Positions 13,310 to 36,283 of a stretch of DNA of 64,000 nucleotides are shown here, piece after piece; position 1 is the stretch's first letter, and each line of letters begins with the position of its first letter. Origin of the DNA: Catalinimonas niigatensis (lineage in GTDB: Bacteria; Bacteroidota; Bacteroidia; Cytophagales; Cyclobacteriaceae); contig NZ_CP119422.1 of assembly GCF_030506285.1 (NCBI RefSeq), forward strand, positions 2,170,001 through 2,234,000, given 5' to 3'. The notes under the pieces were generated by a model. That model was not told the origin of the DNA. It ran no database searches and saw only the letters and a list, made by a program, of their open reading frames with translations. Made by a program: the position numbers and the translations under genes.

Positions 13310-14416
13310 ATGCCTGATATAGAATGCTATACTTTTAAGTCTGAATATCTCCAACACTTCATAGAGGAAGTATTCAAACACTATGGAGTACCGGAAGCAG
13401 ATGCACAACTTGCTTCTGATGTACTGATCACCAGTGATCTGCGGGGTATTGATTCCCATGGTGTGGCCCGCCTGCATACTTATTTCGGTTTGCTTAAAGC
13501 TGGCCGTATCAATCCAAAACCTAAAATCAAAATCTTAAGAGAGAAAGCCAGCGTAGCTACCGTTGACGGAGACAATGGTTTAGGCTTGGTGATTGGCCCC
13601 AAGGCCAATGCAATTGCGATGGAAAAAGCAGAAAAAGTAGGTTCAGGTTGGGTAAGTGTCTGCCATACCAATCACTTTGGCATAGCTGGTTATTATCCTT
13701 TACAGGCATTAAAAAGAGACCTCATTGGCTGGGCAATGACCAACACTACCAAAATCGTAGCCCCTTTATGGGGTATGGAACGTATGTTGGGTACCAATCC
13801 TATCGCCATCGCCTTTCCGGGGCTGAAAGAGCCCCCTATCGTCATTGATCTGGCTACCAGTGTGGCTGCTTTCGGAAAAGTTGAAATAGCCAAACGCGAG
13901 CAGAAAACCATGCCCAGGGGCTGGTGTATCAATGATCGGGGGTTGGAGACTATCTATGCTGATGAGATGATAGAAGGTGGTGCTTTACTTCCGTTAGGAA
14001 CAGATCGTGAGCGAGGCGGACACAAAGGCTACGCCCTTTCTGCCATGGTAGACATACTGAGCGCTGTACTCAGTGGTGCTAACTGGGGGCCTTTTGCACC
14101 TCCCTTTACACTACAGCAGAGTATGCCGGAAAGGAGTGTAGGCAAAGGTATAGGCCATTTTTTTGGGGCAATGCAGATTGACGGATTCATAGAAGTGGAT
14201 GAATTCAAAAGGCAGATTGACGACTGGATACAGACATTTCGGCAAACAAAAGCTGCTCCCGGAACTTCAGGCACAATAATTCCCGGTGATCCGGAAAGAA
14301 AAGCAGAACAGATCAGAGGCGAGCAAGGAATACCTTTACTACAGCCGGTAATTATTGATCTGCTGGATATTTCCCGGCAAAGTGGCATTCCCTTTAAGCT
14401 TAACAAAGCCAATTAG
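13310..14416 (+). CDS. Ldh2/malate-lactate dehydrogenase family oxidoreductase (paralogue 1)
   Basis: 368 residues, the usual size for the NAD(P)-dependent Ldh2 fold, which is unrelated to classical LDH/MDH. Family motifs are DLRGIDSHGVARL (43-55, with the conserved His50) and TNHFGIAGYY (120-129, with N121/H122). RMLGTNPIA and PGDPER towards the C-terminus also fit. Members oxidise malate, L-lactate, ureidoglycolate, sulfolactate or related 2-hydroxyacids; which of these applies here cannot be said. A clear paralogue lies at 35204-36283. The gene appears monocistronic. Confidence 0.9.
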   Translation: MPDIECYTFKSEYLQHFIEEVFKHYGVPEADAQLASDVLITSDLRGIDSHGVARLHTYFGLLKAGRINPKPKIKILREKASVATVDGDNGLGLVIGPKANAIAMEKAEKVGSGWVSVCHTNHFGIAGYYPLQALKRDLIGWAMTNTTKIVAPLWGMERMLGTNPIAIAFPGLKEPPIVIDLATSVAAFGKVEIAKREQKTMPRGWCINDRGLETIYADEMIEGGALLPLGTDRERGGHKGYALSAMVDILSAVLSGANWGPFAPPFTLQQSMPERSVGKGIGHFFGAMQIDGFIEVDEFKRQIDDWIQTFRQTKAAPGTSGTIIPGDPERKAEQIRGEQGIPLLQPVIIDLLDISRQSGIPFKLNKAN

Positions 14417-14550: not shown

Positions 14551-15183
14551 ATGTCAGATATTAACAATAACAATCAAAGAAAGAAAAGCAGATCAAGATG
14601 GCTCATCCCGGCAGTAATCGCAATAATTATTGGCTTCGTCATTGTACAATTAGTATTGCTGGATGAAACTCGTGACCAACAAGTGACTGATGAAGTTGAG
14701 GAGCTTACAGAGACATCTGGTGAAAAGGAAATTAGCCCAACGAATATTCCCCTTCGCTCAATTGATGAGTACGTTGTATTTGTGAGTGAGAATAATCCTG
14801 ATGATAACAGTATTTTTGTAAGCGAATATATTGCCAGTGCTCTAAATTATCTCACTGAGGCTTTAGAAGAACTTTCCGAACAGCAAGAGATACGATTAAA
14901 TGCAGCTACCCTTACACAATTAAAGGAGCAATCTGATAGAATTTCTGATTCTGAAGCTCAGGAAAAAGCTGTGCATGTTAAAAATTCTTTCATTATGATT
15001 TCTGAAACGATGGAATCTTTAGATTTAGAAGGTTCTGAAAAGCTACAAACTGAAATCAGAACGCTACAGAAGATGATCAGTGCTATTGATATTGAAAGTA
15101 ATATAGAAGAACAAGATAAAGCAGTGAGTCAGTTTTTAGAACAGACTGGAATAGTACTGGAATTGATTGAAAACGAAGTGTAA
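14551..15183 (+). CDS. Unrecognised single-pass membrane protein
   Basis: 210 residues. The N-terminus is polar and basic (NNNNQRKKSRSR at 5-16), followed by one strong hydrophobic helix (about 17-37) and then an acidic, mostly helical exterior of about 170 residues (pattern VTDEVEELTE, EALEELSEQQE, Gln/Glu/Ser-rich). Topology should be N-in with the helical domain in the periplasm. No family is recognised. It stands between Ldh2 and the operon on the other strand and has no partner. Codon composition looks like its neighbours. Confidence 0.65.
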   Translation: MSDINNNNQRKKSRSRWLIPAVIAIIIGFVIVQLVLLDETRDQQVTDEVEELTETSGEKEISPTNIPLRSIDEYVVFVSENNPDDNSIFVSEYIASALNYLTEALEELSEQQEIRLNAATLTQLKEQSDRISDSEAQEKAVHVKNSFIMISETMESLDLEGSEKLQTEIRTLQKMISAIDIESNIEEQDKAVSQFLEQTGIVLELIENEV

Positions 15184-15658: not shown

Positions 15659-16720
15659 TTATGGATGAACTAATGAAAAATCCTGATCACTAAGCGTATG
15701 CAAAAAAGCAATGATGGCTTCTTTTTCACCTTCCTGCATTGGAATTCCCACTTGTCCATTGCTGTTTTGTAAAGCAGTATCCAGATAAGGTGAAGCAAGC
15801 ATATTTTGATTGTAATGGTCTAGTACTTCCTTTAGAGATTGGAACCTTCCGTCGTGCATATAGGGAGCAGTCAGAGCTACATTGCGTAATGTAGGTGTTT
15901 TGTAAGCACCAATCTGCGTGGAATCAAAGCTTATGCGGAATCTACCCATTGATACCCTTTCCTCCTCTTCAGAGAATATTGTATCCAATCCATTATTATG
16001 GTAAGAGAAATCAGTGAAGAAATCTTTTTTCCCACTTTCAAAAGCATGACAGCTAGCACATTTTTCTTTGAACAAATTTAAGCCTTCTCGTTCTATGGCA
16101 CTCAAACTTCCTCCTTCTTCACTCCTCACAAATCGGTCGTAACGGCTATCAGCACTAATCAAAGTGCGCATATATTGCGCCAATGCTCTGGCTACCAAAG
16201 CGGATTGAATACTATCCGTACCATATGCTTTTCTGAACAAGTGAGGATAATCCGGCATTTGTTGCAGTTCCTGCAGCAATTGCTCAAGATCCTCTCCCAT
16301 TTCATCAGGATGGGTTAATGGGCCGAATACCATAGATTCCAGATTGTTTGCCCCTCCATCCCAGAACAAGCCCTCACTCCATCCAACATTTGTCAGATGA
16401 GGCACATGCCTGACGAATGTTTTTTTGCTTAATCCCGCATTGCTCAATGTTTTTCCATCAGAAAAAGAAAGCGCAGCAACATGGCAAGTAGCACAGGAAA
16501 TCTGATTATTTGCGGATAGTAGAGGGTCATAAAAAAGCTTTTTGCCCAAGACTACACCTTCTTCCGTCATAGGATTGTGTCTGGGAATAGGCATGGCTTT
16601 TTGAAGATTGGCCGGAATGCTAAGGGTATAGGGAGTAGGCTCAAGTACTTCTTGTTTTTTTCCACAAGCTACCCCAAGCCACACAAGAAAAAAGAAATAG
16701 CTGTAGCTACGGGTTTTCAT
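15659..16720 (-). CDS. Di-heme cytochrome c peroxidase/MauG-family lipoprotein (operon copy 2)
   Basis: 353 residues. The N-terminal hydrophobic signal ends in lipobox LGVAC with Cys19 as lipidation site. Two c-type haem motifs are visible, C76-ATCH80 and C221-ASCH225, and the C-terminal APYMHDGRF segment (286-294) supplies the usual axial region. Members reduce peroxide or, like MauG and MbnH, oxidise tryptophan residues in a partner protein through a bis-Fe(IV) state. It is the last gene of the operon, starting only 25 bp after the restored end of the DUF3050 frame. It is a paralogue of 18263-19405, but the second haem motif differs (CASCH versus CGDCH). Confidence 0.9.
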   Translation of the reverse strand: MKTRSYSYFFFLVWLGVACGKKQEVLEPTPYTLSIPANLQKAMPIPRHNPMTEEGVVLGKKLFYDPLLSANNQISCATCHVAALSFSDGKTLSNAGLSKKTFVRHVPHLTNVGWSEGLFWDGGANNLESMVFGPLTHPDEMGEDLEQLLQELQQMPDYPHLFRKAYGTDSIQSALVARALAQYMRTLISADSRYDRFVRSEEGGSLSAIEREGLNLFKEKCASCHAFESGKKDFFTDFSYHNNGLDTIFSEEEERVSMGRFRISFDSTQIGAYKTPTLRNVALTAPYMHDGRFQSLKEVLDHYNQNMLASPYLDTALQNSNGQVGIPMQEGEKEAIIAFLHTLSDQDFSLVHP

Positions 16721-16745
16721 TTCTACAATACTTGGTCAGAATAAT

Positions 16746-16832
16746 TTAATGAAGCATGTTGGCGATGCCATCCCACAGCGTAATCCTCGCCTTGAGTGCT
16801 TTTTGTGCTATTTTATAGCTACTGATTCCATT
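16746..16832 (-). pseudogene. Out-of-frame C-terminal tail of the DUF3050 gene
   Basis: Immediately after the TAG that ends the DUF3050 frame, the +1 frame reads AQKALKARITLWDGIANMLH and then stops at 16746. As I recall the DUF3050 family, its C-terminus carries a conserved AL-aR-LWDGI pattern, so this is probably the displaced end of the same protein. Twenty-eight bases separate the Trp codon at 16828-16830 from this segment, which is one more than a multiple of three. A single-base insertion, real or a sequencing error near AAAAA 16831-16835, explains it. Confidence 0.7.
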
Positions 16833-17514
16833 TTTGCTGATCGTCGCCACAGAGTGCTTCCATCATCTGCATAGCCAGTGGACCATGTTCATCGGCATCC
16901 AGTTCAATATGACGTTCCAGATAGTAGATAAAATCCTCCAGATGGGCAGATTGGTTCTGCTGTATATCTTTGACCAAGGAGGTAAACATGTCGGGAATCA
17001 AATCTTCTCTACCCCAGGCAAACACGGCGGCTACTTCATGTAGTTTTCCTCGGCTCAGGGTCTGAAAAGTGAACTCCATAAAGTCTTGGACCTCCTTGGA
17101 AATGGCTTGCTGTCGTGCTGCCTGAGCCACAGGCTGACCTTTACCAACAGCAGAAAGCAGTTGTTTGATCTGTGAAGTATCTGCACCTGCCTGATCCATC
17201 GCCTTCAGGTAGAGTTGGTAGTGGCTGGAAGGCTGCCCCTGCCTGTCTATATCCGTTTCCTCTCCCAAAACAATTTCGTTGATCATACGCGCAGCAGCGG
17301 TATGTTCAGAGGGTAGCCAGGGAAGTTGCACACAGGTCAGTTCGCGCTGCAAAAATTTAAGCAAAGACATGAAGTCCCAGACCGCAAATACATGCTGCTC
17401 CATGAAAATGTGCAGATGTTGCGGAGACTTTATTTTCTGATAAAGAGGATGATGAATCAATTGCTGTTTTAAAGGCGACAATCCATTTTCTATTCTTGCA
17501 ATATGTACATTCAT
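16819..17514 (-). CDS. DUF3050 family protein, predicted haem-oxygenase-like fold
   Basis: 231 residues as read, lacking the last 25-30 because of an apparent frameshift near 16825-16835. The family core is clear: HHPLYQKIKS at 21-30, FMEQHVFAVWDFMSLLKFLQ at 37-56, LPWLPSE at 64-70 and NEIVLGEETD at 79-88. A late His/acid-rich helix RHIELDADEHGP is at 201-212. DUF3050 is placed by fold with haem-oxygenase-like proteins, many of which are non-haem iron oxidases. H41, E85/E86, H202, E204, D208 and H210 are candidate metal ligands, which is inference. It starts 5 bp after the MbnP-like gene. No signal peptide is seen, so it is probably cytosolic. Confidence 0.85.
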   Translation of the reverse strand: MNVHIARIENGLSPLKQQLIHHPLYQKIKSPQHLHIFMEQHVFAVWDFMSLLKFLQRELTCVQLPWLPSEHTAAARMINEIVLGEETDIDRQGQPSSHYQLYLKAMDQAGADTSQIKQLLSAVGKGQPVAQAARQQAISKEVQDFMEFTFQTLSRGKLHEVAAVFAWGREDLIPDMFTSLVKDIQQNQSAHLEDFIYYLERHIELDADEHGPLAMQMMEALCGDDQQKWNQ

Positions 17515-17519
17515 AGCGC

Positions 17520-18266
17520 TTATTTTATTCTATCAATGGTAAACATACCGGATGCATAATTGTCAGCGACTTTTTCAGAAAAAGGATCAAACATCACTAC
17601 AGCATGCTCCTGAAAACTCACCAGATTAGGTGCATCAAAGAGCTCGGCCACATCCACCCGGACACTGACTTGCGTTTCATTTCCGGCAGATAACACAACT
17701 TCCGGCAAATTCTCCTGCCCCAAAGTATACGTCAGTTTACGATAGTTTGGATCCCCTCCAATATGATAAATCAGGCCTTCACTCTCTTCTTCTGTCACAA
17801 AGTATGTTCCTTCTACTGAAAGAAACTTATAACCGGTATTCCAGTTCCATGCCATGTCATTACTTGGGTCAAGGGCTCCTACTCTATCGGTTGAGGTATT
17901 GGTGCTATTGTCAACACCAATGGCAAACTCCAGCTGATTGTATGTTCCAATCGGGAGCTTTTCCAGAGAAATTTCAAATACATCACTACTTTCTGTCCCC
18001 ACCAGATGATAACTTTCCGGCTCAATGTACACTTCACCTGTAGTGGTATTGCGGAGCCTGATGTTACTGATATAATACCTTACTTTGCTCAGGCTGTATG
18101 CTTCACCCGCTGCATTAACATATCGGGCAGTATTCAATTGTAAGGGTTCTTCACCTACAACATGACTGAAGCTTAACTTCAATGTCGCATCATCAGCCGT
18201 CTGCTCATCCTCTTTGCAGGCAGATAAAATAAGGATACAAGCCAGGTAAACCGCTAAATTTTTCAT
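17520..18266 (-). CDS. MbnP-like lipoprotein
   Basis: 248 residues. A signal sequence with lipobox LSAC gives Cys17 as the acylated residue, so the protein is envelope-anchored. The body matches the MbnP family: LSFSHVVGEEPL at 31-42, YSLSKVRYYISNI at 57-69, and the hallmark AWNWNTGYKF at 139-148 with Trp140 and Trp142. Candidate ligands include H34, H87, H168 and H221. In Methylosinus, MbnP binds copper using a kynurenine made from Trp by the di-heme enzyme MbnH. Here the start overlaps the preceding di-heme gene by 4 bp (ATGA), so the two are translationally coupled. A copper role in this organism is inference. Confidence 0.85.
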   Translation of the reverse strand: MKNLAVYLACILILSACKEDEQTADDATLKLSFSHVVGEEPLQLNTARYVNAAGEAYSLSKVRYYISNIRLRNTTTGEVYIEPESYHLVGTESSDVFEISLEKLPIGTYNQLEFAIGVDNSTNTSTDRVGALDPSNDMAWNWNTGYKFLSVEGTYFVTEEESEGLIYHIGGDPNYRKLTYTLGQENLPEVVLSAGNETQVSVRVDVAELFDAPNLVSFQEHAVVMFDPFSEKVADNYASGMFTIDRIK

Positions 18267-19405
18267 GGGGTAAATGGATTTGAAAAGCGTTCATCTTCAA
18301 TAAAAGTACTATCGGTCAGCATGTGCAAAAAGGCAAGTATCGCTTCCTTTTCTTCCGGAAGCAGATGCAGCCTGATGGGCTCACCACTTTGTATAGGCGC
18401 ATTACTGGCCTCCTGAATCAGAGGATCAAGGGTTGCACTCATCTGAATATGCTCATCATAATGCGCCAGTACTTCTTCCAATGTATTGAAACGGCCATCA
18501 TGCATATAAGGTGCGGTAAGGGCTATGTTTCGCAAGGAAGGTGCACGAAATTTTCCTTTGTCAAAATCATTTCCTGTATGTGCCGCCAGGCCTTCTTCCA
18601 TATCATTATCCTGATCCAATCCGTTATTATGAAAACCATTAAATGCATCCGTAGCTCCCCCGGTAAAAGGTCCCAAATGGCAGTCACCGCAGTTCCCTCC
18701 CTTGATACCCTGAGAAGCTTCGGGATGGGTATAGAAAAGATCCATACCCTTGCGTTCTAAATCTGTGGGCTCGTATTCATCTCTCCAGTATTTGTCCAGC
18801 TTAGACTGATTGCTGATCAAGGTTCGTTCAAACTGCGCCAGCGCTTTAAGAAGGTTTTCTGCGGTAATGCTATCCGAACCAAATGCTGCAAAGAATTGTG
18901 GGGGATAAATTTCTGTCGCCTGCAACCGCAAAACTGCTTCATTCACATCTTCCAGGCCCATTTCCAGAGGATTGGTCAGCGGGCCTACCGCCTGTGCTTC
19001 TAGGCTAGTATCTCTCCCGTCCCAATTCAGGCGGTTTACCCATAAAAGGTTGTGCAGAGACATGGTATTTTTGTTCACCTGCCCACCATTGATTCCCAGG
19101 GGGAACTGTCTGCCATCTGTAAAGGCTTTCTCCTGCTGGTGGCAGGAGGCGCAGGAAATGCTTTTGTCTGCTGAAAGCTGCTTTTCATAAAAAAGCATAC
19201 GCCCCAGCGCTATACCCTCTTCGGTAAATGAGTTATCAGAAGGTACCGTAGCTCCATCAGGAAAATACCAGGGCAAAGAAAGTGTATAAGGAGTAGGGTC
19301 ATAGACTGGCTCCTTATCTATATCTTTTTCTTCGTTGCAAGCAGCATATAGCCCCAGCATAAGGAGAGGCAAATATATCCGATGTAATAACCTATGGCTG
19401 TTCAA
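18263..19405 (-). CDS. Di-heme MauG/CCP-family lipoprotein, MbnH-like (operon copy 1)
   Basis: 380 residues. Signal sequence with lipobox YAAC, Cys23 acylated. Two haem c motifs, C85-ASCH89 and C239-GDCH243, and the axial region APYMHDGRF at 298-306. It is placed directly before the MbnP-like gene with a 4-bp overlap and overlaps the upstream lipoprotein by 14 bp. That adjacency is the known MbnH-MbnP arrangement, so it is the better of the two paralogues as MbnP modifier. Peroxidase activity is the alternative. Electron donors are not encoded nearby. Confidence 0.9.
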   Translation of the reverse strand: MNSHRLLHRIYLPLLMLGLYAACNEEKDIDKEPVYDPTPYTLSLPWYFPDGATVPSDNSFTEEGIALGRMLFYEKQLSADKSISCASCHQQEKAFTDGRQFPLGINGGQVNKNTMSLHNLLWVNRLNWDGRDTSLEAQAVGPLTNPLEMGLEDVNEAVLRLQATEIYPPQFFAAFGSDSITAENLLKALAQFERTLISNQSKLDKYWRDEYEPTDLERKGMDLFYTHPEASQGIKGGNCGDCHLGPFTGGATDAFNGFHNNGLDQDNDMEEGLAAHTGNDFDKGKFRAPSLRNIALTAPYMHDGRFNTLEEVLAHYDEHIQMSATLDPLIQEASNAPIQSGEPIRLHLLPEEKEAILAFLHMLTDSTFIEDERFSNPFTP

Positions 19406-19847
19406 ACTTTTGCAATACTTTTTCAGCTTGTTCTATGCTGTTGAGCATTTTATCTTTAACAACGATAATCTTTTCTTTTTCTGATGCTAGTTCCTGCATT
19501 ATTTCTTCTTCTTCCATATTTTCAAACTGAAAGTCATTGGAACGCATCCAGTTCATCATCGCATCGTCTGCTTCTTTGAGATCTGCTTGGATGTTTTTGA
19601 GTGAGTCAACGGAGATAGAGGCTGATACTTTCTGAGTTTCCAAGCTATCAATTACCTGTTTCAGCGCTTTTTGGAGACGAAAAATACGCCCCATTTCAGG
19701 CATTACTTCATCGTGTATGGCCATCACTTCATTGAACAAAGCATCCTTGCTGCTTTCCTCCAAATTTGATTGAGATTGATTTTCCTGTGGAGATGCGTTA
19801 CAGGCAACCATAATGACAGTCGCCAACATATATATGACCTTTTTCAT
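19392..19847 (-). CDS. Met/His-containing coiled-coil lipoprotein
   Basis: 151 residues. The signal peptide ends MVAC with Cys16 as lipidation site. The mature protein is helical and acidic, with two conserved-looking Met clusters: VMAIHDEVMPEMG at 41-53 (M42, H45, M49, M52) and DAMMNWM at 95-101 (M97, M98, M101). Similar short Bacteroidota lipoproteins are often labelled hypothetical or inclusion-protein-like. Met/His clusters in an envelope protein heading an MbnP/di-heme operon suggest Cu(I) binding, which is inference. It is the first gene of the operon, overlapping the di-heme gene by 14 bp. Confidence 0.75.
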   Translation of the reverse strand: MKKVIYMLATVIMVACNASPQENQSQSNLEESSKDALFNEVMAIHDEVMPEMGRIFRLQKALKQVIDSLETQKVSASISVDSLKNIQADLKEADDAMMNWMRSNDFQFENMEEEEIMQELASEKEKIIVVKDKMLNSIEQAEKVLQKFEQP

Positions 19848-19901: not shown

Positions 19902-19929
19902 AAAAAAAGGCTCCCTTACGAAAGCCTTT
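19902..19929 (-). terminator. Intrinsic terminator of mdh
   Basis: On the minus strand AAAGGCT (19929-19923) pairs with AGCCTTT (19912-19906) and is followed by further T residues. It begins 25 bp after the mdh stop codon and separates mdh from the lipoprotein/di-heme operon. Confidence 0.75.
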
Positions 19930-19953: not shown

Positions 19954-20883
19954 TCAGGCCATTTTATCCAGCACCTGCATTACCTCTTTCACATGTCCTT
20001 CTGAGGTTTTAAGCAGTTGCATTTCATCATCAGTAAGCTCAAGCTCAATGATTTTTTCAATACCGTTTTTACCTAGAATTACCGGAGCACCCAGGTAACA
20101 GTTATCAATGCCATACTCTCCTTCCAGTTTCAGACAAACCGGGAATACACGACGCTGATCTTTCACAATCGCTTCTACCATTTGAGCTGCAGCTGCTCCA
20201 GGTGCATACCAGGCTGAAGTTCCCATAAGTTTTACCAGCTCTCCACCACCGGTTTTGGTACGCTCCACAATAGCATCCAGCTTAGCTTTGTCGATGAGTT
20301 CAGTGACAGGTATACCACCCACCGTAGTGTAGCGAGGTAGAGGTACCATGGTATCACCATGACCGCCCATCAATACTGCCTGAATATCTTTGGGAGAAAC
20401 GTTGATTGCCTCGGCCAGAAAGGCACGGTAGCGTGCAGTATCCAGAATACCTGCCATACCCATTACCTTAGTACGGGGAGCCTTGGAGGTCAGGTGTGCC
20501 TGATAGGTCATTACATCCAGAGGATTGGATACAATGATCAATATGGCTTCAGGAGAATGCTTAATCACATTTTCAGTCACTGTTTTTACGATACCAGCAT
20601 TGGTCTCGATAAGGTCGTCACGGGACATACCAGGCTTACGAGGTAGTCCTGAAGTGATCACTACCACATCAGAACCAGCAGTTTTGGTATAGTCGTTTGT
20701 AGAACCAATAGTACGGGTGTCATAAAGATTGATAGGTGATTTTTGCCATATATCCAAGGCTTTTCCTTCGGCAAATCCTTCTTTGATGTCTACCAACACC
20801 ACTTCATTGGCTATTTCACGATAAGCCAAAACGTCGGCGCAGGTTGCTCCCACATTTCCGGCTCCTACTACAGTTACTTTCAT
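19954..20883 (-). CDS. mdh: Malate dehydrogenase (LDH-like type)
   Basis: 309 residues. NAD-linked interconversion of malate and oxaloacetate in the TCA cycle. The Rossmann motif GAGNVG is at 7-12, with the NAD-specifying Asp32. Active-site residues are R82 (LPRKPG, selecting malate over lactate), R88, N120, D148, R151 and H175 (GGHGDTM), all present. It has its own terminator and a good upstream promoter at 20934-20968. It is distinct from the two Ldh2-fold dehydrogenases elsewhere in the window. Confidence 0.97.
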   Translation of the reverse strand: MKVTVVGAGNVGATCADVLAYREIANEVVLVDIKEGFAEGKALDIWQKSPINLYDTRTIGSTNDYTKTAGSDVVVITSGLPRKPGMSRDDLIETNAGIVKTVTENVIKHSPEAILIIVSNPLDVMTYQAHLTSKAPRTKVMGMAGILDTARYRAFLAEAINVSPKDIQAVLMGGHGDTMVPLPRYTTVGGIPVTELIDKAKLDAIVERTKTGGGELVKLMGTSAWYAPGAAAAQMVEAIVKDQRRVFPVCLKLEGEYGIDNCYLGAPVILGKNGIEKIIELELTDDEMQLLKTSEGHVKEVMQVLDKMA

Positions 20884-21016: not shown

Positions 21017-21538
21017 TTAGAAAGTTGTATACAACAAATCCAGGCTAAAGAAACCTCTGGAAGAACGGTAAGAGGCAAAGAGTTGTTTGGTATACTCATC
21101 ATACATTTCAGTGAGTGAGGCCAGCACCTTGGCCTTGATTTTTGGCTGAGCAGAGAAAATATCCATGATATTTACATGTGGTATCACATAAAGGTCAGCA
21201 TCCACAGAGGTAACGATTGCATTGTAAAAGCGATTGGTATCAGCGATACAGGCATTGTTACCAAAAGAATGACCACTACCAATCTGATTCAATATTTCCA
21301 GGTTATCCCCGATATCAAAAGATATAGATACTTTCCCTCTTTTGATGATGTAGAGCGCATGACTAGGATCTTTTCTGAAAAACACCACTTCATCCTGCTT
21401 GTACTTCCGCAAATATAAGTAAGGCAAAAAAGATACCTTCTCATCATCCGTGAGTGTTTCAAAAATTTTGATTCCTGACAGGAAATTAAAAATACTTGTT
21501 TCCTCAGCAGAATACGAACGTTGAAAAGGGTTTTTCAT
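21017..21538 (-). CDS. Cyclic-nucleotide-binding-fold protein without DNA-binding domain
   Basis: 173 residues. A single CRP-like beta-roll domain spans about 20-125 (IFETLTDDEK, ALYIIKRGKVSIS, IGSGHSFGNN), followed by a helix at 130-155. There is no helix-turn-helix, so it is not a CRP/FNR transcription factor. In the phosphate-binding cassette the canonical FGE becomes FGN (N94), and the position of the conserved Arg is Tyr105, so cAMP binding is unlikely. Its function is unknown. It lies upstream of mdh on the same strand, separated by mdh's own promoter. Confidence 0.75.
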   Translation of the reverse strand: MKNPFQRSYSAEETSIFNFLSGIKIFETLTDDEKVSFLPYLYLRKYKQDEVVFFRKDPSHALYIIKRGKVSISFDIGDNLEILNQIGSGHSFGNNACIADTNRFYNAIVTSVDADLYVIPHVNIMDIFSAQPKIKAKVLASLTEMYDEYTKQLFASYRSSRGFFSLDLLYTTF

Positions 21539-34248: not shown

Positions 34249-35196
34249 ATGGAGAAGCAACAAATTGCCGTCATTGATTTAGGCACAAATACTTTTCATT
34301 TGCTTATTGTAAGCATTGATGAACATCAGCATTTTCATCTGCTTCACCGTGAACGGAAAGCTGTAATGATTGGTAGAGGTGGTATTAATCTGGGATTGAT
34401 CAAGGAAGAAGCACAGCTTAGGGCATTGGCTGCCCTTGATCAGTTTAAAGAAGTAATTGATCAGTATCAGGTTGAGCATGTAGTAGCCACTGCTACAAGT
34501 GCTTTTCGTAATGCGCATAACGGACAGGAACTTGCTGACCGGATATATAAGGCTACAGGTATTTTTATTGATATTATTTCCGGAGATACTGAAGCTGATT
34601 ATATTTTTCATGGCGTGAAAGCAGCTATGCGCCTACAGGATGAAAAAGCGCTGATCATGGATATAGGGGGTGGTAGTGTTGAGTTTATCATTTGTAATGC
34701 TGATTGTGTTTTATGGAAGTATAGTTTTGAAATTGGAGCACAGCGCTTGCTCGATCGTTTTCAGATTGAAGATCCAATCTCGCAGGAAAATATACATGAT
34801 CTCTTACAATACTTTGATGAGGAACTATTAAGTTTGACAACAGCAGTTAGTAAATATAAGCCTGACACATTGATCGGCGCATCAGGTACTTTTGATACGC
34901 TAAGCGATATTTATGTAATTAGAGAGACTATTTCTGTTGATCCAGATGCTTCGGAATTACCCTTATCTTATGAACATTATATAGGTATTCATCAGGAGCT
35001 TAATCAAAAGAATCATGAACAACGGCTAAAAATCCCAGGAATGGTAGATATGAGAGCAGACATGATTGTAGTCGCTTCATGGCTTATCCATTTTGTATTG
35101 GAAAAATATCATATACGTCAAATTCGTGTATCTGCCTATGCACTGAAAGAAGGTTTGCTCCAATGTGCTACTAAACAGCTAATTGCCAACCAGTAA
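34249..35196 (+). CDS. Exopolyphosphatase/guanosine pentaphosphatase (Ppx/GppA family)
   Basis: 315 residues from ATG 34249; the longer frame to 34009 would run back through the carboxylase gene and is not used. The ASKHA fold begins [14 protein letters not shown] (6-19), with Asp10 in the phosphate-1 loop. Further motifs are [10 protein letters not shown]-like [11 protein letters not shown] and [14 protein letters not shown]. At this length it is the short two-domain form, without the C-terminal HD domain. Members hydrolyse polyphosphate or pppGpp. It is followed after 7 bp by the Ldh2-type gene, so the two are probably co-transcribed. Confidence 0.88.
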
Positions 35197-35203
35197 CCTA
35201 TAC

Positions 35204-36283
35204 ATGCCACACTTTACCTATACTGACCTCCATACTTTCACATATAACATTTTCAAAAAAATGGGCTGCCCCTCCCATGATGCAGAACTGGCAGCTGATG
35301 TTTTACTAAAGGCAGATCTTAGAGGCGTAGATTCTCATGGAGTAGCTCGTCTGGTAGGTTACGTGAGGCTATGGGAAAAGAAGAGGATCAATGTAAGGCC
35401 AGCCATTCAAATCGTACATGAAACTCCTAGTACTGCTGTGATTGATGGAGATGGAGGATTAGGTTTGTTGGTGGCTCCTTTTGCAATGAAAGTGGCCATG
35501 GAAAAAGCTCACTCAGCGGGCACAGGATGGGTAAGTGTAAGAAATTCCAACCATTTTGGTATTGCAGGATATCATGCAATGATGTCTTTGGAAAAAGATA
35601 TGATCGGGCTGGCGATGACTAATGCCAGCCCATTGGTAGCTCCAACGTTTGCTACGGAACGAATGCTAGGAACTAACCCTATTGCTGTGGCTATTCCGGC
35701 AGATCAGCAACCTCCTTTTGTAGCCGATTTTGCTACAACTACTGCTGCTAATGGAAAACTGGAGATGCTTCAACGAAAAAACGAGCAAGCTCCCCTGGGT
35801 TGGGTACAGGATATGCAAGGTAATGCTTCTACTAATCCCCATGAACTTTCAAAAGGCGGAGCTTTGCTGCCTCTAGGCAGTGATCGTGACAGAGGTAGCC
35901 ACAAAGGCTATTGTCTGGGTTCTATCGTTGATATTTTTTCCGCAGTGTTTTCAGGAGCTAATTATGGTCCCTGGGTGCCTCCCTTCGTTAGCTTTCTCCC
36001 TTTAAGCAAAGATCCGGTAGGAGAAGGAATTGGTCACTTTTTAGGTGCTATGCGAATAGATGCTTTTCGTCCTGCAGATGAGTTCAAAAGGAATATGGAT
36101 CAATGGATTGCTCGTTTTCGTTCAGCCACGCCAGTCGCTGATCAGGAGAGAGTATTGATTCCCGGAGACCCGGAGCGTGAGATGGAAAGTATACGGCTGA
36201 AAGAAGGTATTCCTCTGTTAGAACCGATAGTGGAAGATCTGACAGCACTGGCAAAAAGATTTGATATGAGTTTTATAGAGTAA
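35204..36283 (+). CDS. Ldh2/malate-lactate dehydrogenase family oxidoreductase (paralogue 2)
   Basis: 359 residues from ATG 35204, 7 bp after the Ppx stop. A TTG at 35183 in the same frame would overlap ppx and is less likely. It shares DLRGVDSHGVARL (38-50, His45), SNHFGIAGYH (N116/H117), RMLGTNPIA, GSHKGY and PGDPE with the copy at 13310-14416. It is a distinct paralogue, not a recent duplicate, since most surface residues differ. It overlaps the convergent beta-barrel gene by 11 bp. Confidence 0.9.
   Translation: MPHFTYTDLHTFTYNIFKKMGCPSHDAELAADVLLKADLRGVDSHGVARLVGYVRLWEKKRINVRPAIQIVHETPSTAVIDGDGGLGLLVAPFAMKVAMEKAHSAGTGWVSVRNSNHFGIAGYHAMMSLEKDMIGLAMTNASPLVAPTFATERMLGTNPIAVAIPADQQPPFVADFATTTAANGKLEMLQRKNEQAPLGWVQDMQGNASTNPHELSKGGALLPLGSDRDRGSHKGYCLGSIVDIFSAVFSGANYGPWVPPFVSFLPLSKDPVGEGIGHFLGAMRIDAFRPADEFKRNMDQWIARFRSATPVADQERVLIPGDPEREMESIRLKEGIPLLEPIVEDLTALAKRFDMSFIE

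Follow-up and report, generated by a model that had tools for sequence, protein, structure and literature searches.

The window analyzed here is a stretch of 64,000 nucleotides from Catalinimonas niigatensis (contig NZ_CP119422.1, positions 2,170,001 to 2,234,000). It contains an operon at 15659-19847, whose five minus-strand genes encode an MbnP-family lipoprotein, two di-heme enzymes (A and B), a DUF3050 protein and a small lipoprotein with a Met/His/Trp motif, designated MetLP. From upstream to downstream, the features are as follows.

19392-19847, minus strand: MetLP gene; Met/His/Trp-motif lipoprotein of an unnamed family, predicted to form a three-helix bundle.
18263-19405, minus strand: enzyme A gene; TTG start, MbnH-type di-heme lipoprotein with two CxxCH, Trp128, Gln138, Glu148 and Tyr300.
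17520-18266, minus strand: MbnP gene; MbnP-family lipoprotein with M138-A-W140-N-W142 and H168.
16819-17514, minus strand: DUF3050 gene; heme-oxygenase-like di-iron (HDO-like) family, six ligand positions kept, frame ends early.
16746-16820, minus strand: DUF3050 C-terminal tail in another frame; apparent frameshift, the tail being in frame in the sister genes.
15659-16720, minus strand: enzyme B gene; MauG/MbnH-type di-heme lipoprotein with two CxxCH, Trp120, Met130 replacing Gln, Glu140 and Tyr287.

MetLP and A overlap by 14 bp, A and MbnP overlap by 4 bp, and MbnP and DUF3050 are separated by 5 bp. If the other-frame tail is counted, 25 bp separate the end of DUF3050 (16746) from gene B, which lies two genes downstream of MbnP within one operon. 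The packing of the five genes described in the initial annotation, with its overlaps, gaps and frameshift, was confirmed throughout. The genome is a single contig of 7.13 Mb with one MbnP match, one DUF3050, one MetLP and two CCP_MauG proteins (A and B), so every match sits in this one cluster. Lipoboxes were recognized by eye in the four envelope proteins (AACN in A, SACK in MbnP, VACG in B and VACN in MetLP).

The MbnP protein matches Pfam PF20243 at 156 bits (cut-off 27) and contains W-x-W, the Met ahead of it and the His further downstream. The profile search matched 7l6g, the MbnP of Methylosinus trichosporium, at E 0.00064, and the fold match agreed; a search of solved structures with the single sequence returned an unrelated designed repeat protein (E 1.9e-5). 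A and B match CCP_MauG at 188 and 185 bits (cut-off 25.6). Each has two CxxCH hemes and the Tyr of PYMHDG, as well as the WDG Trp, a residue positioned between the hemes in MauG; the roles of these heme-pocket residues and the chemistry of MbnH are those of the MauG/MbnH literature. The best solved-structure match of both enzymes is the di-heme enzyme 6e1c, which we take to be MbnH. Among named genera, Algoriphagus and Echinicola have the A enzymes closest to this one. The earlier identification of the pair as MbnP and MbnH is thus supported, and the absence of a methanobactin system holds as far as tested, since no protein in the whole genome matches PF05114 (MbnB family).

The operon was compared with 59 relative genomes (numbered with G, their loci with L), among which G001 and G002 are sister species in the same genus. 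In G001, all five genes are present in the same order. In G002, MetLP, A, DUF3050 and B are kept and MbnP is missing. An upstream lactate/malate dehydrogenase gene and a downstream small protein are common to all three species; the Ldh_2 gene beyond the small protein is shared with G001 and is not in the G002 stretch read. With the order kept in G001 and, minus MbnP, in G002, and with the same flanking genes, the arrangement is more than chance, and it points to one ancestral operon. The five genes together were found in this genus only, in two of the three species. The sister species also have second MbnPs (L047_8935 and L048_7864); after the MbnP of the G001 operon, these are nearest to that of the window.

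In a tree of 131 di-heme proteins, inferred by a short search with support from the Shimodaira-Hasegawa-like approximate likelihood-ratio test (SH-aLRT) only, A and B of the window fall in separate clades. The B clade consists of 14 rows (support 99), and 11 of its members are clustered with an A enzyme: the window, L046, L049, L066, L067, L069, L074 and L084 among the relatives, and L106 and L107 (Echinicola) and L109 (Pontibacter) among named genomes. Counting only the relatives, an A accompanies 8 of the 11 B-clade enzymes; at L060, L077 and L083, MbnP is accompanied by B only. The second di-heme enzyme, proposed earlier as a new part of this system, is therefore present but is a recurrent partner in an A-MbnP-B trio across genera and not special to this locus. 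The 80 named loci were found with an A-type query, as the best 80 of 584, and are biased towards A.

MbnP was found at 53 places in the relatives, 44 of which were read with flanks. Across many genera, MbnP is encoded next to an A- or B-type enzyme, and the groups in its tree mostly reflect the partner type. Nine of the 11 MbnPs from trios, including that of the window, fall in one clade of 24 rows (SH-aLRT 94), which also holds MbnPs paired with A or B alone and solo MbnPs. Another clade of 21 includes 17 of the 20 rows labelled as paired with a third type, C. The C-labelled row L047_8935 groups with the window MbnP; it was so labelled because an MbnP-C pair follows it.

Every one of the 131 di-heme proteins has both CxxCH, the PxEM Glu and the PYMHDG Tyr, and the WDG Trp is present in every A (38), B (14), C (21) and A' (49) enzyme, A' being a further type. 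The distal Gln is kept in 38/38 A, 48/49 A', 4/14 B and 4/21 C enzymes. Most MbnPs that adjoin a C enzyme have no other di-heme neighbour, so absence of the Gln is in itself no argument for an idle B. A separate clade, B' (9 rows, support 99), comprises enzymes encoded between an MbnP and an A'-type enzyme; their genomes belong to Flavobacteriales, Sphingobacteriales and other Bacteroidota, and nearly all are metagenome-assembled genomes (MAGs). At one of these loci (L165) the MbnP is a 70-aa piece at a contig end. In all nine B' enzymes (L138, L146, L149, L156, L157, L159, L165, L173 and L179), the WDG Trp is replaced by Arg, Ser or Lys, and the neighbouring A' enzyme keeps the Trp.

Alternatively, an A-MbnP pair may have merged with an MbnP-B pair, leaving A and B as redundant or sequential duplicates and the second enzyme without a separate job. 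Pairs of either kind are found without the other enzyme, and at L074 (G045) an A-MbnP and an MbnP-B pair stand side by side in tandem; the trio may have arisen by such joining. The loss of the WDG Trp from the second enzyme of the B' layout points the same way. B itself, however, keeps both CxxCH, the Trp, the Glu and the Tyr in 14/14 enzymes, and the trio persists across genera. We consider this explanation unlikely, although it is the most probable of the alternatives.

MetLP matches no Pfam or NCBIfam family at cut-off. It is present in 44 of the 59 relatives, with a weak match in G048 (E 2e-4). In 45 MetLPs, collected with a profile built from six sequences that all had the motif to begin with, H45, M49, M97, W100 and M101 are each kept in 43-45 sequences (W100 in all 45), and M52 in 36. 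A single-sequence model (predicted local distance difference test score 79) has three helices, at 33-72, 80-103 and 113-149. If the first two pack antiparallel around the turn near residue 76, H45, M49 and M52 would lie in one layer with M97, W100 and M101, a geometry worked out by hand, not from coordinates. The model gave no fold match at E < 0.001 (best 0.2), and the profile gave weak matches alone among solved structures (best E 0.011).

The gene neighbourhood of MetLP suggests a link to copper delivery. Of 44 genomes, 19, spread over six families of the order, have SCO1 within 5 kb of MetLP, where about 0.17 are expected by simple arithmetic (5.2-Mb genome, 89 SCO1 places, rows weaker than E 9.2e-8 left out). 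One such neighbour, taken as an example, scores over the PF02630 cut-off. Genes for a cytochrome c and a HemJ-family protein are frequent companions of MetLP and SCO1. MetLP lies within 5 kb of MbnP in four genomes, and in G042 (L067) the trio, cytochrome c, SCO1 and MetLP are all together. The two SCO1 matches of the window genome lie far from MetLP. In L217, L221, L222, L230 and L233, relatives of MetLP have His-rich stretches soon after the lipid Cys, like metal-binding lipoproteins.

MetLP bears on another arrangement, in which A matures MbnP and B acts on a different protein of the same copper cassette, for example on the invariant Trp100 of MetLP. This Trp is framed by Met, and together with a near-invariant His of MetLP it resembles the Met-x-Trp and His of MbnP; MetLP heads the A-B operon in all three species, including G002, which lacks MbnP there. 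Outside the genus, however, MetLP is near just one of eight trio clusters (L067), and the Trp is kept in every MetLP while no di-heme enzyme occurs among the four genes on either side in the 38 other loci read. Such a role of B is quite improbable.

The DUF3050 protein scores 317 bits against the Pfam cut-off of 22.2, and its top solved match is the DUF3050 protein 9vwb. Its frame stops early; the conserved C-terminus is read in another frame (16820-16746), and a matching tail is in frame in both sister-species genes. The 3-His/3-carboxylate di-iron ligand positions of the heme-oxygenase-like family are described in PMC4520260 and PMC13108848, and all six are present in the window protein. Among 12 aligned rows, E86, H98, E170 and H202 are invariant, and D206 and H210 are kept in at least 90%. 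By eye, there is no signal peptide, so the protein should be cytoplasmic and unable to act directly on the lipoproteins.

All three species of the genus carry DUF3050 in the operon, and two have it next to MbnP. As a conserved partner of MbnP beyond the genus it was rejected: the pairing occurs in 0/20 other DUF3050 loci and in 0/80 named A-type loci. No MbnP or di-heme gene flanks the 20 DUF3050 loci outside the genus among the 59 relatives (about 5-9 kb per side, some limited by contig ends), and no neighbour family is common to more than 3 of 22 DUF3050 loci. In a sample of 321 genomes of the order, DUF3050 is present in 143 and MbnP in 211, and no close pair of them was seen by eye among the matches listed. 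DUF3050, earlier regarded as a new part of the system, is thus a genus-level addition to the operon, with no MbnP link seen elsewhere.

With a probability of about 0.62, we interpret the locus as an MbnP/MbnH-type operon for copper handling in the envelope, which includes two maturation enzymes and a candidate copper carrier. MbnP is known to contain kynurenine. By analogy, a di-heme enzyme with H2O2 would oxidize W140, the first Trp of W-x-W, probably to kynurenine, and the oxidized residue with Met138 and His168 would form a copper site. A, which is MbnH-like and keeps the distal Gln, and B, in which Gln is replaced, are enzymes of different lineages that would serve the same MbnP, acting in two steps or on two residues. 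MetLP, a small lipoprotein predicted to be helical, may bind Cu(I) through His45, Met49, Met52 and Met97/Met101 beside Trp100 and then hand it on. In related genera, members of its family lie close to SCO1. DUF3050 would be a putative cytoplasmic di-iron-type oxidase that joined the operon in this genus.

Several observations weigh against this interpretation. The NCBIfam cut-offs are missed, by A and B for MbnH (TIGR04039; 275 and 226 bits against 362.85) and by MbnP for the equivalog TIGR04052 (59 against 140). MbnP is therefore a family member, not an equivalog. The second Trp and the Met of its motif are kept in just 78/99 and 72/99 proteins. Four MbnPs beside A' enzymes (L143, L169, L170 and L184, in Polaribacter, Winogradskyella and Tenacibaculum) have Phe at the Trp position, next to enzymes with all checked residues, so kynurenine at this position cannot be general. 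Besides the rarity of MetLP at trio clusters, genomes without MbnP can carry MetLP. In G002, no MbnP remnant was found in the ~245-bp stretch at its place, and no TonB receptor or copper regulator was found among the scanned proteins beside the operon in the window.

A and B could also be ordinary periplasmic peroxidases removing H2O2, with MbnP and the rest as mere neighbours and copper irrelevant. Their family is CCP_MauG, bacterial cytochrome c peroxidases are among their next best solved matches, and the missed MbnH cut-off fits as well. The top position of 6e1c for both enzymes and the adjacency of MbnP, whose tree largely follows the partner type, argue against it and make it improbable. 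The copper interpretation of the initial annotation is supported by the W-x-W, Met and His of MbnP and by the SCO1 link of MetLP elsewhere, and its interpretation as a whole is partly supported.

The MbnP/MbnH pair itself is not new. According to PMC3621798, it (TIGR04039/TIGR04052) is already known far beyond methanobactin producers. The operon shares with it a di-heme enzyme adjoining MbnP, the W-x-W, Met and His positions and the MbnP fold. It differs in having two di-heme lineages per MbnP, each with a lipobox, and in including MetLP and DUF3050; the genome lacks MbnB, and the scores fall under the NCBIfam cut-offs. It is a wider version of the known system, and its core layout recurs in related bacteria. 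CorA/CorB and MopE are methanotroph surface copper proteins with kynurenine, which combine an oxidized Trp with a di-heme peroxidase-like gene partner (PMC3621798, PMC3912023 and PMC3423442); compared by description, not by sequence, they resemble what is predicted for MbnP here. MauG, which matures tryptophan tryptophylquinone, belongs to the same superfamily, and its PDB chains match both A and B, but A and B score below the MauG cut-off and the neighbour here is MbnP.

CusF binds Cu(I) by His, two Met and a Trp in a beta barrel. MetLP has the same kinds of residues near-invariant, in what would be a metal site, but is a predicted helical bundle. The DUF3050 protein keeps the ligand positions of HDO proteins such as MgoB (DUF3050), CADD and UndA. 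In PMC3298696, DUF3050 belongs to a Pseudomonas biosynthetic operon, whereas here it shares an operon with envelope proteins.

Two things appear to be new: that one MbnP repeatedly comes with enzymes of two lineages, and the MetLP family, including its linkage to SCO1. In the literature search, neither a two-enzyme MbnP operon nor MetLP was the subject of any listed title or abstract, and the 2021 MbnP structure paper did not surface. We suggest, tentatively and with less than even confidence, that MetLP represents a new family of helical Cu(I)-carrying Bacteroidota lipoproteins (H-D-x-x-M-P-x-M ... M-M-x-W-M) serving both SCO1 and MbnP routes, and that, in this phylum, two different MauG-class enzymes often act on a single MbnP to mature it. 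If so, some MbnP-type copper proteins would need two radical-type heme enzymes instead of one, the order of tryptophan oxidation would become testable, and MetLP would be a candidate link from envelope copper capture to SCO1-dependent copper delivery. G002, with MbnP lost from the operon and both enzymes kept, offers a natural experiment on the remaining function of A and B.

An acidic lipoprotein export signal is described in PMC5080379. At least two acidic residues within the four positions that follow the lipid Cys are found in 8 of 11 MbnPs of trio loci and in 1 of 42 MetLPs with a recognized lipobox (of 45). In the window, by eye, MbnP (CKEDE) and A (CNEEK) have the signal, and B (CGKKQ) and MetLP (CNASP) do not. 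The group means of A (1.20) and B (1.00) barely differ, and the lipobox finder missed 18/38 A and 3/14 B enzymes and misread a small number, which makes a surface/periplasm division no more than a hint.

Some MbnPs that follow a B gene keep W-x-W and have a Glu aligned to the copper-site His (L106 12509-13336, L107 12547-13344, and L060 6731-7645 and 7665-8585). Alphaproteobacterial A-MbnP pairs, from Ruegeria atlantica (L123 and L125) and a MAG labelled Proteobacteria (L118), nest in Bacteroidota clades of A and MbnP, and this placement suggests transfer between phyla.

A further feature lies between the operon and its upstream neighbour, the lactate/malate dehydrogenase gene at 19954-20883.

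19906-19929, minus strand: terminator-like hairpin; consensus match only.

Such sites are not commoner than in shuffled sequence (5 found, 4.9 expected). A protein with a cNMP-binding domain is encoded nearby at 21017-21538. On the other side of the operon, the gene at 14551-15183 encodes, on the opposite strand, a small membrane-anchored protein of no known family; it is kept beside the operon in both sister species and is found, weakly, near DUF3050 in L098. The window also contains two Ldh_2 malate/L-lactate dehydrogenase genes, at 13310-14416 and 35183-36283, which are unrelated to the lactate/malate dehydrogenase gene upstream of the operon.

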